Origin: Bacteroidota bacterium
Lineage (GTDB): Bacteria; Bacteroidota; Bacteroidia; UKL13-3
Direction: 5' to 3'
Assembly (NCBI GenBank): GCA_947464275.1
Contig: CANHVU010000027.1
Location: 1-45,132, forward strand
Length of the DNA: 45,132 nucleotides
In this document: piece by piece, positions 40,827-45,132 of the stretch
Position numbering within the stretch: position 1 is the stretch's first letter
Layout of the letters: the number at the start of each line of letters is the position of its first letter
The notes under the pieces: generated by a model
The model's database searches: none
Told to the model about the DNA's origin: nothing
Seen by the model: only the letters and a program-made list of their open reading frames with translations
Made by a program: the position numbers and the translations under genes

Positions 40827-41741
40827 ATGCAACACGATAAACATACTTATTACTTCGAAAAGTATTTGCGCAAAGAAATGTCGCGCAATGAAAAGGATGC
40901 GTTTGAAAAAAAATTGAATATAGATACCACGTTTAAAGCAGATTTTGACAAATATGCCTTAAACCATGATTCTATTTTAAAAGAAGAATTAGAAGAGTAT
41001 TATAATGAGGAGATCATTCCTGATAAACCCAAAAATTATTCATGGTTATTGGTTCTTGTTTCTGTGTTTGGCTTAGCTTTACTTATTGATTTTTACGCCA
41101 ATCAAAAATATGCAGAAACGCAAAAACAAAATCAAACTTATAAGGAGGAAATTGTTACTCGTTTTAAAAATGCGTTTGTTGAGCCTTTCAAACAAATCAG
41201 TTTTAAGAAAAGTGCTAAACAGCTTGATACTATTTATAAACAGCTTACATTTAGTTCGGAGGAAACACAAGAAAATGATACCAGCACAGTTCTAACCCTT
41301 GTTGATTCAAGCTTAATTGAAGAAAAAATTATCGATCAGTTTCAGCAAATAATGCGCGATAAAAACTTGGAAAGTAATGTTAAAGATGTTTTTTTGGATG
41401 ATAGTTTGATGACCGTTGTTGACCTAGAAAAATTCAAAGAAAAGTTTAAAATAATAACATACTCTACTGATAGTGTTTTTTCTGACAGCTTGGTTAATAG
41501 ACTTACATTGCAATCTTTATCAAAACAAAACAATACCAATAAGCCCTTGTTTGTTGAGTTTTGGCAATCGTTGGTTGGTTTTAATGGTTATCAGTTTACT
41601 GGTAAAAAACTGGTGCTTTATGGTATTAGAAAACCTTTTGATCTATTTATTTTAAAACAAAATAATTTGTTTGTGCTGCACTCAAAATGGGGTGAAACTG
41701 CATTACAAGCCGATAATCAATTACACAAATTTGAAGACTAA
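40827..41741 (+). CDS. Anti-sigma-like single-pass membrane protein
   Basis: A 304-aa protein. The N-terminus (YYFEKYLRKEMSRNEKDAFEKKL, residues 8-30) looks like the cytoplasmic start of anti-sigma factors of the zinc-less type, and one membrane segment lies at about residues 72-89 (WLLVLVSVFGLALLIDF). The large C-terminal part is presumably periplasmic, charged and helical, and unrecognised. No sigma-factor gene is adjacent, which is unusual for an anti-sigma factor. Its 3' end overlaps the dapF start by 11 nt, so it is co-transcribed with dapF. Confidence 0.6.
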   Translation: MQHDKHTYYFEKYLRKEMSRNEKDAFEKKLNIDTTFKADFDKYALNHDSILKEELEEYYNEEIIPDKPKNYSWLLVLVSVFGLALLIDFYANQKYAETQKQNQTYKEEIVTRFKNAFVEPFKQISFKKSAKQLDTIYKQLTFSSEETQENDTSTVLTLVDSSLIEEKIIDQFQQIMRDKNLESNVKDVFLDDSLMTVVDLEKFKEKFKIITYSTDSVFSDSLVNRLTLQSLSKQNNTNKPLFVEFWQSLVGFNGYQFTGKKLVLYGIRKPFDLFILKQNNLFVLHSKWGETALQADNQLHKFED

Positions 41742-42519
41742 ATTTTATAAATACCAAGGCACGGGCAACGATTTTATTATGATTGATGACCGAACCAAAA
41801 CTTTTGATGCCAATAATCAAAAATTAATTGAAAACTTGTGTGATAGAAGATTTGGAATAGGTGCTGATGGATTAATTTTATTACAAAACCACGATACATC
41901 TGATTTTTACATGCAATATTTTAATAGCGATGGTCGCGAAAGTTCTATGTGCGGCAATGGTGGCAGATGTATTGCTCAGTTTGCTAAAGATTTAGGCGTG
42001 GTAAACGATTTTGCTACTTTTTATGCCATTGATGGCATTCATACTGCTTCTTATAAAAATAATTGGGTTAGCCTTCAAATGAAAGATTTAACTCAAATAG
42101 AATTGCGCGATAATCACGTTTTTGTATTAAATACTGGCTCACCACATTATGTGCAATTTTTTGAATATGATGTTGATACCATAGATTTGGTTAATGAAGC
42201 AAAAAAAATAAGGTATAATAAGGAGTTTGAAGCCCAAGGAATCAATGTGAACTTTGTTTCCATTCATAATAATGAGTTAAAAGTTAGAACTTACGAAAGG
42301 GGAGTAGAGGATGAAACTTTTAGTTGTGGAACTGGTGTTACTGCTGCGGCAATTGCATATTCAGTTTTTTCAAAAAATACCCAAATTGAAATGGAAGTTA
42401 ATATGCAAACCAAAGGTGGAAACCTTTCGGTAAGTTATTTGTTCCAAAATAATGCATACCAACAAGTGTTTTTAAAAGGCCCAGCCACATTTGTGTTTGA
42501 GGGCGAAATAGAAATTTAA
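41731..42519 (+). CDS. dapF: Diaminopimelate epimerase
   Basis: From TTG at 41731 the product is 262 aa and starts with KTKFYKYQGTGNDFIMIDD, the normal N-terminus of DapF. The longer frame reaching 41671 is only read-through of the previous gene. Catalytic cysteines lie in SSMCGNGGRC and FSCGTGVTAAA, and NVNFVSIHNN and RTYERGVEDET are typical. It converts LL- to meso-diaminopimelate for peptidoglycan and lysine synthesis. The TTG start overlaps the stop of the preceding gene by 11 nt. Directly after its stop the ~72-bp repeat array begins. Confidence 0.93.
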   Translation: MKTKFYKYQGTGNDFIMIDDRTKTFDANNQKLIENLCDRRFGIGADGLILLQNHDTSDFYMQYFNSDGRESSMCGNGGRCIAQFAKDLGVVNDFATFYAIDGIHTASYKNNWVSLQMKDLTQIELRDNHVFVLNTGSPHYVQFFEYDVDTIDLVNEAKKIRYNKEFEAQGINVNFVSIHNNELKVRTYERGVEDETFSCGTGVTAAAIAYSVFSKNTQIEMEVNMQTKGGNLSVSYLFQNNAYQQVFLKGPATFVFEGEIEI

Positions 42520-42528
42520 ACAACAAAA

Positions 42529-42805
42529 GAGCCATCGGCTCGAAAATATTGTAACCGTGGATTTCAATCCACGGAAAAAGAAAAACGGAAACAAACCAAG
42601 AGCCATGTGCTCGACAAATATTTTAGCCGTGGATTTCAATCCACGGAAAAAAGAAAAAAGGAAACAAACCAAAAGCCGTAGGCTCGATAAATATTTTAGC
42701 CGTGGATTTCAATCCACGGAAAAAGAAAAACGGAAACAAACCAAGAGCCATGTGCTCGAAAATATTTTAGGCATGGATTTCAATCCACGGAAAAAAGAAA
42801 AAAAT
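42529..42805. repeat. Tandem array of four ~72-bp REP-like units before the transposase gene
   Basis: Units start at 42529, 42600, 42673 and 42745, with the last cut at the transposase start. Each has a small hairpin GAGCC-NNN-GGCTC (or a variant), an AT-rich AAATATTTTAG, a large hairpin CCGTGGATTTCAATCCACGG (42555-42574, 42627-42646, 42700-42719, a variant at 42771-42790) and an A-rich GAAAAACGGAAACAAACC tail. The units follow one another without unique spacers, so this is not CRISPR. Confidence 0.9.
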
Positions 42806-43268
42806 ATGGCAAACACCTATCATCAAATATATTTGCAAACAGTATTTGCAGTTAAATTCAGAAATGCTGTAATTGAAAAAGAGTGGAAGCATGAACTTTT
42901 TTCAGTAATAGGTAATTTAATAAATGAAGCAGATTGTAAAAATATCATAGTAAACGGAGTAGAAGACCATGTCCATTGTTTTTTTTTCTCTAAAACCAGT
43001 TGTTTCGGTTTCAGAATTAATGAAAACAGTTAAATCAAAATCCTCAAAATATGTGAATGATAAGTCTTTAACAAAAGAGCGATTTGAGTGGCAAGTAGGC
43101 TACGGTGTTTTTTCATATAGTCAATCTCAAATTGGAAAAGTGTATGATTACATATTAAATCAGGAAGAGCATCATAAAAAACAAACATTTAAGAACGAAT
43201 ATTTACAATTATTGGAAAGTTTTAAAATTGATTATGACGAGAATTATTTATTTGAGGAATTGATTTAG
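42806..43268 (+). pseudogene. IS200/RAYT-type Y1 transposase, frameshifted
   Basis: Joining two frames gives a 153-aa TnpA-like protein. Frame 1 (MANTYHQIYLQTVFAVKFRN ... GVEDHVHCFF) carries the HUH motif H55-V-H57, and frame 2 (SLKPVVSVSELMKTVKSK ... GYGVFSYSQSQIG) carries the likely catalytic Tyr (Y115, in VYDYILNQEEHH) and FKNEYLQLLESFKID. The frames meet at a run of nine T (42979-42987); eight T would restore the reading frame. Loss of function, slippage-dependent expression or a sequencing slip are all possible. The frame extended upstream through the repeats to 42557 is not a real N-terminus. Confidence 0.8.
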
Positions 43269-43280
43269 TAAATATGCACC

Positions 43281-43461
43281 GAGCCTATGGCTCTCAATTT
43301 ACATGGCTTTTTAATTGCAGTGGGTTAAAACCCACTGTTAAAAAATAGTCCGAGCCTACGGCTCTTCATTGAAAAGAGCCGTAGGCTCGACAAATATTTT
43401 AGCCGTGGATTTCAATCCACGGAAAAAGAAAACAAATGCTAATCGTGGATTTTAATTCACG
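43281..43461. repeat. REP-like hairpins downstream of the transposase
   Basis: GAGCC-TAT-GGCTC at 43281-43293 is followed by a different palindrome CAGTGGGTTAAAACCCACTG at 43318-43337, GAGCC-TAC-GGCTC at 43352-43364, a full unit with GAGCC-GTA-GGCTC (43376-43388) and CCGTGGATTTCAATCCACGG (43403-43422), and a decayed copy CGTGGATTTTAATTCACG (43444-43461). These fill the gap up to ispG and continue the family seen before the transposase. Confidence 0.85.
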
Positions 43462-43482
43462 GGAAAAGAAAATTTAATAACA

Positions 43483-45132
43483 ATGACATACCAACGCAGA
43501 AAAACAAGCACCGTAAAAATTGGTGATTTATACATTGGAAGCGATTTTCCAATTATTCCTCAAAGTATGACCACTACCGATACCATGGATACCCAAAAAT
43601 CGGTGGCGCAAATTATTAGGATGGTGGATGCCGGTTGTCAATTGGTTAGATTAACTGCTCCAAGTTTAAAAGAAGCTCAGAATTTAGCTGAAATAAAGAA
43701 AGAATTGAATGCCAAAGGAGTTAAAGTTCCACTGGTGGCAGATATACATTTTACTCCAAATGCTGCTGAATTAGCTGCTCGAATAGTTGAAAAAGTGCGC
43801 GTTAATCCTGGTAATTATGCCGATAAAAAGAAATTTGACATCATTGATTATACCGATGCGGAATACCAAGAGGAAATAGACAGAATTAGGGAAAAGTTTG
43901 TTCCTTTAATTAAAATTTGTAAAGAGTATGGAACAGCATTGCGTATTGGCACCAATCATGGTTCGTTAAGCGATAGAATTATGAGCCGTTATGGCGATAC
44001 TGCTCACGGAATGGTAGAAAGTGCAATGGAGTTTTTACGAATAGCCGAGGATGAAAATTTTCACAATATTGTGCTTTCCATGAAATCAAGTAACCCGCAA
44101 GTAATGGTGCAAGCTTATAGGTTATTGGTAAAAACCATGGATAATAATAACATGCATTATCCATTGCATTTAGGGGTAACTGAGGCTGGCGATGGTGATG
44201 ATGGAAGAATAAAATCAGCATTAGGAATTGGCGCCTTGTTGGAAGATGGAATTGGCGATACCATTCGTGTTTCGCTAACCGAAGACCCTGAATTTGAGGT
44301 GCCTGTAGCTAAAAAATTAATTGCACGCTACACTCAAATTGAACAAACCAATTATCCGCAGTTAAATTTAAATATTGCTGAAAATAATAACTGGAGTGCT
44401 TTTGATTATAAACGCAGAGAAACCAACGAGGTTTATAACTTAGGAGCACATCAAGTGCCTAGAGTAATTGCTAATTATAGCAATAATGAAAATTTAGCGG
44501 CCGAAGATTTAAAACCAATTGGTCATATTTATGATGCCCAACTCGATAAATGGCATATGAATGATATTGGAGCTGATTTTATTTATTTAGGAAATAATAA
44601 AGCCAATTTTATGCTACCAATGGGTTTAAAAGCCGTTTATAAAGCTCAAACTTGGAATTTGGTAATTGATAAAACCAATGCATTTCCATTATTTACTTCG
44701 GCCGATTTATTGCAAAGCAACCATTTAAAAGCAAATTCAAGCACACTCAATTTTGTGCACTTGTTGGTAAATGAGTTATCTGAAGAATTGCTTCAAACGG
44801 CTAATCAAATGAAAAATGTGGTTTTTATTTTAGAATCAAGTATAGCTAATCCAATGACCGATTTGCGTGCAATTTTTTTTAAATTAAACGATTGGAATAT
44901 AAAAAATCCAGTTTTGCTAACTCATAATTACCATGATGAGAGCGATGAAGAGCAATTTATGCTGCATTGTTCAACCGATTTTGGTGCATTACTAATTGAT
45001 GGTTTTGCAGATGGATTGATGTTTAAAGCCAATTCAATTAAACCAGAACGCATGAACCAAATAGCATTTGGTATTTTGCAAGCCGCCAGAACACGTATTT
45101 CTAAAACTGAATATATAAGTTGTCCAAGTTGC
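43483..45132 (+). CDS. ispG: 4-hydroxy-3-methylbut-2-en-1-yl diphosphate synthase, 3' end beyond window
   Basis: 550 codons are visible from ATG at 43483 to the edge. The N-terminal barrel contains GSDFPIIPQSMTTTDT, VDAGCQLVRLTAP, VPLVADIHFTPNAAE and VRVNPGNYAD, typical of IspG/GcpE. A long middle insertion (about residues 270-520) characterises the large form found in Bacteroidota, chlamydiae and plants. The frame ends at SCPSC, the first cysteines of the 4Fe-4S site. It catalyses the reductive ring opening of MEcPP to HMBPP in the MEP isoprenoid route. The start lies 21 bp after a decayed REP hairpin. Confidence 0.92.
   Translation, partial: MTYQRRKTSTVKIGDLYIGSDFPIIPQSMTTTDTMDTQKSVAQIIRMVDAGCQLVRLTAPSLKEAQNLAEIKKELNAKGVKVPLVADIHFTPNAAELAARIVEKVRVNPGNYADKKKFDIIDYTDAEYQEEIDRIREKFVPLIKICKEYGTALRIGTNHGSLSDRIMSRYGDTAHGMVESAMEFLRIAEDENFHNIVLSMKSSNPQVMVQAYRLLVKTMDNNNMHYPLHLGVTEAGDGDDGRIKSALGIGALLEDGIGDTIRVSLTEDPEFEVPVAKKLIARYTQIEQTNYPQLNLNIAENNNWSAFDYKRRETNEVYNLGAHQVPRVIANYSNNENLAAEDLKPIGHIYDAQLDKWHMNDIGADFIYLGNNKANFMLPMGLKAVYKAQTWNLVIDKTNAFPLFTSADLLQSNHLKANSSTLNFVHLLVNELSEELLQTANQMKNVVFILESSIANPMTDLRAIFFKLNDWNIKNPVLLTHNYHDESDEEQFMLHCSTDFGALLIDGFADGLMFKANSIKPERMNQIAFGILQAARTRISKTEYISCPSC

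Follow-up and report, generated by a model that had tools for sequence, protein, structure and literature searches.

The locus described here lies in a 45,132-nucleotide stretch of DNA, referred to below as the window, from contig CANHVU010000027.1 (positions 1 to 45,132, forward strand) of assembly GCA_947464275.1, a Bacteroidota bacterium of the UKL13-3 lineage. Between dapF and ispG the window carries a gene for a Y1 transposase of the IS200 type, set in an array of short two-hairpin units. By analogy with known systems, we consider it likely that the locus is a REPtron-like unit acting on single-stranded DNA (ssDNA), comparable to the repetitive extragenic palindromes (REPs) and their transposases (RAYTs), and that it is built on an enzyme bearing the signature of TnpA-Y1 subclass 1.2, which would bind and cleave the hairpins. 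What is new here is a REPtron-like system on a subclass 1.2-type enzyme, with a two-hairpin unit that Rfam carries as RNA. Genomes, contigs and loci are cited, where necessary, by our own handles (G, C and L numbers).

Each unit in the window joins two hairpins: H1 (GAGCC-NNN-GGCTC or a near form), a linker of 13-14 nt and H2, which is mostly CCGTGGAT-TTCA-ATCCACGG. With 13 nt for H1, 13-14 for the linker, 20 for H2 and about 25 further nt, this gives the 72-nt phase of the array. From the end of dapF (42519) to the start of ispG (43483) the gap holds, in order, four tandem units, the Y1 gene, an inverted unit, a direct unit and a degenerate hairpin (Table 1). Four tandem units of about 72 bp ahead of the gene had been described in a sequence-only reading, and Tandem Repeats Finder bears this out: over 42527-42802 it reports a period of 72 with 3.8 copies and 89% matches, the repeats starting about 72 nt apart (71-73), together with a higher-order period of 145 nt at 92% matches. 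The same reading placed hairpins in each unit and at least two more units downstream. There are indeed two hairpins per unit, but not all are perfect, since H1 deviates in units 2-4 (GAGCCATGTGCTC in units 2 and 4, a start of AAGCC in unit 3) and H2 of unit 4 forms 6 of its 8 pairs; the downstream hairpins are real, but consist of one inverted unit, one direct unit and a degenerate H2. Folded as ssDNA, 42520-42805 gives z = -6.8, equalled by 0 of 200 shuffles. The H2 feet in the window, that is, the bases at the 5' side of H2, are GTAA once, TTAG four times and TTAA once, a loose match to the GTAG-type foot.

The enzyme carries the TnpA-Y1 subclass 1.2 signature, assigned by motifs and not by a tree with reference sequences. 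In seven intact members of 145-153 aa, residues D54, H55, H57, W95, Q96, Y115, Q119, H122 and H123 are invariant, and the shared motifs are DHxH, WQ and Y---Q--HH (the HuH motif is DHCH in one member, L001); the window copy has these motifs spread over two frames, with the Y1_Tnp domain divided between 42806-43030 and 42969-43265. Subclass 1.2 has been described as having DH[IV]H, WQ and Y---Q--HH in proteins of about 148 aa, as being of low copy number and found mostly in Cyanobacteria and Bacteroidetes, and as being without REPs (Quentin et al., 2018, PMC6006769; this and the other publications cited here were available in part). Our enzymes agree with that description in their motifs, their length of about 150 aa, their low copy number and their occurrence in Bacteroidetes. 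The sequence-only reading had labelled the protein a RAYT, a label that does not hold because the class 2 motif Y---NP is not present, the window enzyme having YILNQEEHH. An AlphaFold model (predicted local distance difference test, pLDDT, 85.6) is nearest to the IS608 and ISDra2 transposases (best E 2.9e-8), many of which were solved with end hairpins, and matches TnpAREP 4er8 at E 2.9e-5. The frame is intact, at 153-159 aa, in four relatives that carry the gene in this gap. The gene is under purifying selection, with dN/dS of 0.04-0.10 over the shared parts in all ten gene pairs, including those with the window copy, which implies that the break in the window frame arose recently, came from the assembly or is tolerated thanks to slippage. 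A defence-system gene was also considered and rejected, the orthologue having no PADLOC match at E 0.01.

The association between gene and hairpins extends well beyond this locus. Of 509 confirmed relatives we examined the 80 best, whose identity over the best segment is 54-100%; going by their record titles, all are Bacteroidota apart from one Balneolaceae, and three, L057-L059, are the genus genes of G041, G039 and G042. Hairpins with a stem of at least 7 bp number 215 in 109 kb within 700 nt of the gene and 25 in 96 kb at 2.3-3 kb, and there are 138 composite units in the 154 kb up to 1 kb from the gene and 4 in the 282 kb beyond, a near/far comparison that is uncorrected for the larger share of intergenic DNA near the gene, which tells against it. 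At least one composite unit lies within 1 kb at 54 of the 80 relatives (the finder misses dispersed CATAGGGC-type copies, which were read directly), so that the earlier proposal of a Y1 transposase with hairpins of its own is well supported here and elsewhere. The anatomy in the relatives is rigid: H1 has a 5-bp stem and a 3-nt loop, the linker is 14 nt and often ends in GTAG or GTAA, and H2 has an 8-bp stem and a TTTA or TTCA loop. When H2 was picked by seven perfect inner pairs plus a TTTA/TTCA loop, 79 of 114 H1-to-H2 gaps of up to 60 nt were 13-15 nt long, 65 exactly 14, and none fell at 0-12 or 16-26. The linker consensus is GNNNCATWTTGTAR; taken position by position, the commonest bases of the 65 linkers give G-NNN-C-A-T-W-T-T-G-T-A-R. 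When all such H2 are counted, whether or not an H1 accompanies them, the foot is GTAG in 63 and GTAA in 39 of 183 cases (102/183 in total), against a background of 0.77%. This H1-14-H2 architecture recurs with differing stem sequences among the 80 relatives.

These features invite comparison with REPtrons and RAYTs (PMC8266576, PMC6006769), which likewise combine a single Y1 gene with flanking palindromes that have a GTAG-like foot, stand in direct and inverted orientation and are often in tandem. Local concentration has been reported for Marinomonas REPtrons, and REPMb shares the TTNA loop. GTAG is the usual REP tag, and for one group 3 TnpAREP the loop T-T-N-A was essential and the GTAG motif took part in the choice of cleavage site (PMC8266576); a GTAG-type 5' foot on the flanking hairpins is what the relatives show. 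Unlike REPtrons, the present system has the class 1.2 signature, two dissimilar hairpins at nearly fixed spacing and, in the genus, one site only, whereas REPtron palindromes are dispersed in the host genome. The difference from published subclass 1.2 lies in the hairpins themselves: that subclass was described as having no flanking REP or insertion-sequence hairpins (PMC6006769), whereas the 138 composite units flank 54 of the 80 relatives. The published REP search rule asks for a GT[AG]G foot and at least three G/C in the first four stem bases (PMC6006769); re-implemented here, it was passed by only 15 of the 183 H2, which may explain why subclass 1.2 was scored as being without REPs.

The stems of H2 covary across the genus. 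For the pair test we started from 134 H1-like sites, allowing up to 2 mismatches and counting both strands; 57 of them had G next and 36 nt available, and 52 of these stretches were distinct. Sites were picked by H1 only, and those without H2 were retained and scored as broken. Cells altered on both sides numbered 78 against a shuffled mean of 26.3 (reached in 0 of 500 shuffles of the 52 distinct stretches), change on both sides was seen in 7 of the 8 H2 pairs, and the covariation score of 0.249 fell to at most 0.079 when the partner was slid. H1 is nearly invariant, partly since the sites were selected by it. At the same time the arrays evolve in concert and are homogenised inside each genome. 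The dominant H2 type is CCGTGGAT in the window (4 of 6 distinct units), CCATGGAT in G037 (6 of 8), CCTTGGAT in G041 (6 of 7) and CAACGGGT in G039 (8 of 8) and G042 (5 of 9). Mean H2 identity is 0.91 within and 0.71 between genomes, a difference found in 0 of 2000 label permutations, which ignore kinship.

The site was compared across ten genomes of the genus (assemblies 65-99% complete), all of which match the query from the end of dapF to the start of ispG. Two gaps are without any unit (G038, 29 nt; G044, 38 nt). That of G043 (82 nt) has two H1 only, that of the sister genome G036 (116 nt) has one unit, corresponding to unit 1 of the window, and the degenerate H2, and that of G040 (153 nt) has one unit and extra H1. 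Array and gene are both present in five genomes: the window genome (G000; 977 nt), G041 (1355 nt), G039 (1640 nt), G042 (1254 nt) and G037, where the site is broken across two contigs. All 54 exact matches to GAGCCNNNGGCTCG in the genus, from 8 of the 10 genomes, are at the dapF–ispG gap, and in the window genome neither the CCGTGG hairpin (up to 2 mismatches) nor GAGCCNNNGGCTC was found away from this site. As far as these assemblies show, the hairpin family is confined to one place in the genus. The sequence-only reading had expected dispersed copies of the CCGTGG hairpin, which did not turn up, and had held that repeats in nearby genomes without any RAYT gene would speak against it; formally this is the situation in G036, G040 and G043, where hairpins occur with no gene at the gap. 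These results speak against a spread of this hairpin family and not against a partnership of gene and hairpin, because the hairpins without a gene lie at the same gap and related hairpins are dispersed in other genomes: CAACGGAT-type H2 are found scattered in 13 of 19 chosen genomes, with up to 20 copies. We read the gene-less hairpins as remnants or targets, and the single unit of G036 as either a pre-insertion target or a deletion scar. In 54 other genomes of the family the GAGCCNNNGGCTCG pattern occurs at 15 places in 5 genomes. Ten of these are dispersed over contigs C10, C13 and C34 of G063, which belongs to another genus and has no RF01687 match at E 0.1 under strict filters.

The Y1 gene and its flanks do not share one history. 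In synonymous difference, the window and G041 are closer in the Y1 gene (0.29) than in the adjoining ends of dapF and ispG (0.55; difference -0.26, 95% bootstrap interval -0.40 to -0.12), as are G037 and G041 (0.41 against 0.61; -0.20, -0.35 to -0.05), whereas the window and G037 are closer in the flanks (0.46 against 0.25; +0.21, 0.06 to 0.35). No clear difference between gene and flanks was seen for G039 and G042 (0.00) or for the window and G039 (+0.10, -0.06 to 0.27). This discordance implies that the Y1 gene was not simply inherited with its flanks; an exchange between lineages at this gap is probable. The inverted unit 3' of the gene has an H2 (CAGTGGGTTTTAACCCACTG on the minus strand) that is identical in G041, and direct units of the window's type are also present in G036. 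A chimeric assembly joined through repeats could imitate such discordance; in G041 the gene and its flanks are on one contig. Comparison of the window with G036 gives a synonymous difference (pS) of 0.32 in dapF and 0.04 in ispG (130 and 75 codons), a contrast that points to recombination at or near the array.

Discordance of this kind, which suggests transfer, would also suit an ordinary IS200-type insertion sequence with the outer hairpins as its ends and the tandem units as repeated end fragments or miniature inverted-repeat transposable elements. The IS200-like fold and the hairpins on both sides of the gene agree with it, and IS200/IS605 elements (subclass 1.1) share with the locus the Y1 fold, hairpins beside the gene and a guide-like tetranucleotide. 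We nevertheless regard this explanation as unlikely. The window genome has four genes of this type, on four contigs, and the three paralogues are 50, 48 and 33% identical to the orthologue L053, so that they are divergent and of low copy number; no near-identical gene copies at several sites were found in that genome. The gene is at the same gap in all five genus genomes that carry it and has remained under the constraint described above across a long divergence, and H2 in the relatives often has a REP-like GTAG/GTAA foot. The dapF–ispG gap contains no tnpB, and the tandem arrays and the purifying selection at one site further set the locus apart from IS200/IS605.

A second line of evidence for the REPtron-like reading comes from Rfam. 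The only Rfam match over cut-off in the window is RF01687 (Acido-Lenti-1), which covers the direct unit (43375-43422, minus strand, 38.0 bits, gathering threshold 37); units 3 (42672-42719 minus, 28.6 bits) and 2 (42614-42646 minus, 25.2 bits) match below cut-off. Matches to microRNA models, RUF1 and NsiR8 were all below cut-off and were taken as chance. The RF01687 consensus has an 8-bp stem with a 4-nt loop, a linker CUAauuUAU.. and a 5-bp stem with a 3-nt loop, and by sequence comparison it is our hairpin unit read from the opposite strand, alike in its two stems, loop sizes and linker; it differs in having been described as an RNA of Acidobacteria and Lentisphaerae (PMC2864571). With lax filters, 6 of 7 stretches of the gap in the genus relatives (two from G037 and one each from G039, G040, G041 and G042, but not that from G036) gave 10 full-model matches, which score 22.4-32.9 bits and so stay below cut-off, and these make up 10 of only 12 matches to all 4227 Rfam families in the seven stretches.

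Whole-genome searches used strict filters, under which matches are lost, and the counts are lower bounds. At E 0.1, RF01687 was found in 31 of 64 genomes of the family, with 106 matches in all. A relative of the gene stands no more than 1 kb away from 32 of these, where 0.19 would be expected at random, and the 32 are on 17 contigs, the window's included. The gene is present in 30 of these 31 genomes and in 20 of the 33 others (p = 5e-4), whereas RF01687 was found in one of 14 control genomes, below cut-off. RF01687 was found at E 1e-4 in 30 of 198 Bacteroidota genomes, and the gene (E 1e-20) occurs in 23 of these and in 70 of the 168 others (p = 6e-4); this search missed the window's own match, which has E 6e-7 in the 64-genome search, and the latter missed weak array matches. 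Three or more matches were found in 17 of the 30 genomes with the best matches, and copy number reaches 29 per genome. Such dispersal away from the gene is also the behaviour of REPs. In a more distant group of relatives (L177, L179 and L180) oppositely oriented RF01687 matches stand on both sides of the gene, and a Persicobacter plasmid has one directly upstream of it. Two cyanobacterial plasmid relatives have neither an RF01687 match at E 0.05 nor a composite unit; in one (L186) tnpB adjoins the gene, and the other (L185) carries a further transposase gene as well as a diversity-generating retroelement. In G040, as noted at L173 (contig C402), several dispersed RF01687 copies with CATAGGGC stems are close to the ends of contigs, where they would be expected to lie if repeats interrupt the assembly.

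Since RF01687 is curated as a small RNA, and is listed in Weinberg 2010 (PMC2864571) as "probably" an RNA, with a cis-regulatory role considered improbable, the units might instead be RNA elements, either leaders or processing hairpins of a dapF–ispG transcript or trans-acting RNAs, with the Y1 gene as a passenger. The strong covariation agrees with this but is equally compatible with ssDNA. We judge it quite unlikely that the units are RNA elements, given that the two shortest gaps of the genus (29 and 38 nt) have no unit between dapF and ispG, that both orientations occur in one array, and that RF01687 is so numerous in single genomes and its units cluster at Y1 genes in other species. The unit is probably the same kind of object as the Acido-Lenti-1 "RNA", which would then be a mislabelled DNA element. 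In the literature found to name Acido-Lenti-1, a search that did not extend to the Weinberg 2010 supplement, there is no link to a transposase in the parts available; the family is also named in a Vibrio list, and no related paper was found for the exact hairpin strings. It is very unlikely that the array is a passive product of slippage or recombination at palindromes, with the enzyme uninvolved and the association a shared taste for intergenic DNA, because, although the 145-nt two-unit period suggests tandem duplication and recombination seems to have taken place at the array, the H1-14-H2 architecture and the enriched foot recur with different stems among the 80 relatives and chance slippage predicts no fixed linker motif beside one gene family.

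Several results weigh against the REPtron-like reading. The window copy of the gene is broken as assembled, and 26 of the 80 relatives, as well as a relative on a Bernardetia plasmid (L167, which also lacks an RF01687 match), have no composite unit nearby, the 26 being scored within 1 kb. Two weak measures of covariation gave little, with 7 pairs changed on both sides against 4.5 in shuffles (20 of 500) and 16 pair types against 14.8 (143 of 500). The RF01687 score in the window is only just over cut-off; no other array of the genus, and none of the 20 relatives' loci scanned (L057-L076), exceeds it. In the family 74 of the 106 RF01687 matches are not near a gene, in the phylum 7 of the 30 genomes with RF01687 have no gene at E 1e-20, and only 4 of the 30 best phylum matches have a Y1 gene within 1.5 kb. 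A 2026 Tannerella paper, in the part available, reports no transposase near protease genes that have Acido-Lenti-1 downstream, and suggests that Acido-Lenti-1 may regulate these genes.

On the REPtron-like reading, the enzyme would bind H2, with its 8-bp stem, TTTA/TTCA loop and frequent GTAG/GTAA 5' foot, on exposed ssDNA; the foot would act as a guide, and H1 with the 14-nt linker would form the second part of the recognition unit. Through its HUH and tyrosine site the enzyme would cut and rejoin DNA near H2, and this would seed copies of the unit beside the gene, as tandem and inverted arrays, and at distant sites in many other genomes. Recombination and slippage between copies would then add or remove units; the 145-nt period speaks for the duplication of a unit pair in tandem, with rolling amplification, suggested in the sequence-only reading, as another possible route. 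The array of this genus stays at the dapF–ispG gap and is homogenised inside each genome, and the gene has probably used it as a landing site or as a place of exchange between species. Association and anatomy are observed directly, whereas we infer each catalytic step from known relatives of the enzyme, and infer too the mode of amplification and the action of the unit as DNA rather than RNA. A wider scheme, which we offer as speculative and rather doubtful, is that all Acido-Lenti-1 elements are the ssDNA recognition unit of subclass 1.2 HUH enzymes, that the array is a homing site in some lineages, and that a cassette of gene plus inverted unit jumps between species into arrays resident at one chromosomal gap, the resident units being rewritten to the local hairpin.

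If the REPtron-like reading is correct, an unassigned branch of single-strand transposases gains a likely substrate, and subclass 1.2 can be put to the cleavage assay with which RAYTs have been studied. An Rfam family for which the literature found has given no explanation since 2010 would also gain one, and Acido-Lenti-1 annotations would be traces of a DNA repeat. The dapF–ispG gap, from empty to full in ten genomes, provides a natural series for array growth, shrinkage and gene exchange.

Table 1. Features of the dapF–ispG region in the window.
Feature	Coordinates	Strand	Evidence or remark
dapF (diaminopimelate epimerase), left border	41671..42519	+	TIGR00652, 212.2 bits, cut-off 114.65
Unit 1: H1 42529-42541, 13-nt linker ending GTAA, H2 42555-42574	42529..42574	+	
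Unit 2: imperfect H1 42600-42612, 14-nt linker ending TTAG, H2 42627-42646	42600..42646	+	
Unit 3: H1 42673-42685, 14-nt linker ending TTAG, H2 42700-42719	42673..42719	+	
Unit 4: imperfect H1 42745-42757, 13-nt linker ending TTAG, H2 42771-42790	42745..42790	+	
Y1 transposase, N-terminal part, DHVH motif, first frame	42806..43033	+	PF01797, E 4.5e-10, profile 2-60
Y1 transposase, C-terminal part, WQ and YILNQEEHH, second frame	42969..43268	+	PF01797, E 9.3e-10, profile 56-121
Run of nine T at the frame break	42979..42987	+	8 T in four relatives
Inverted unit: H1 43281-43293, H2 43318-43337, 14-nt linker, H1 43352-43364	43281..43364	-	
Direct unit: H1 43376-43388, 14-nt linker ending TTAG, H2 43403-43422	43376..43422	+	
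Degenerate H2, right border	43443..43462	+	Also in G036
ispG (long form), right border, extends past window end	43483..45132	+	TIGR00612, 356 bits, cut-off 280.25

The start of the listed dapF open reading frame is probably too far upstream. At locus L051 (G039) the Y1 gene and ispG have similar leaders, each made of H1, then CGACACATTTTAAG, then a stretch that is nearly the same in the two as far as the ATG, which looks like the copying of a single start region. Other Y1 genes of the window genome also lie between hairpins. The paralogue with 33% identity to L053, L001 (contig C14), is flanked on either side by hairpins that include AATGGGTTGAAACCCATT and ATGGGCTCAAGCCCAT, and genes of G036 and G037 have nearly the same protein start. 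A further gene of this type, split in two matches, is found in G036 (contig C78, 68287-68741). L007 and L010 (contigs C2 and C26) are longer Y1 genes of 181-182 aa with matching-stem hairpins on both sides (GGTTCGGATT and AGTGCGGTTT for L007, GCAAAGTT for L010), which are perhaps the atypical structures described for subclass 2.6.
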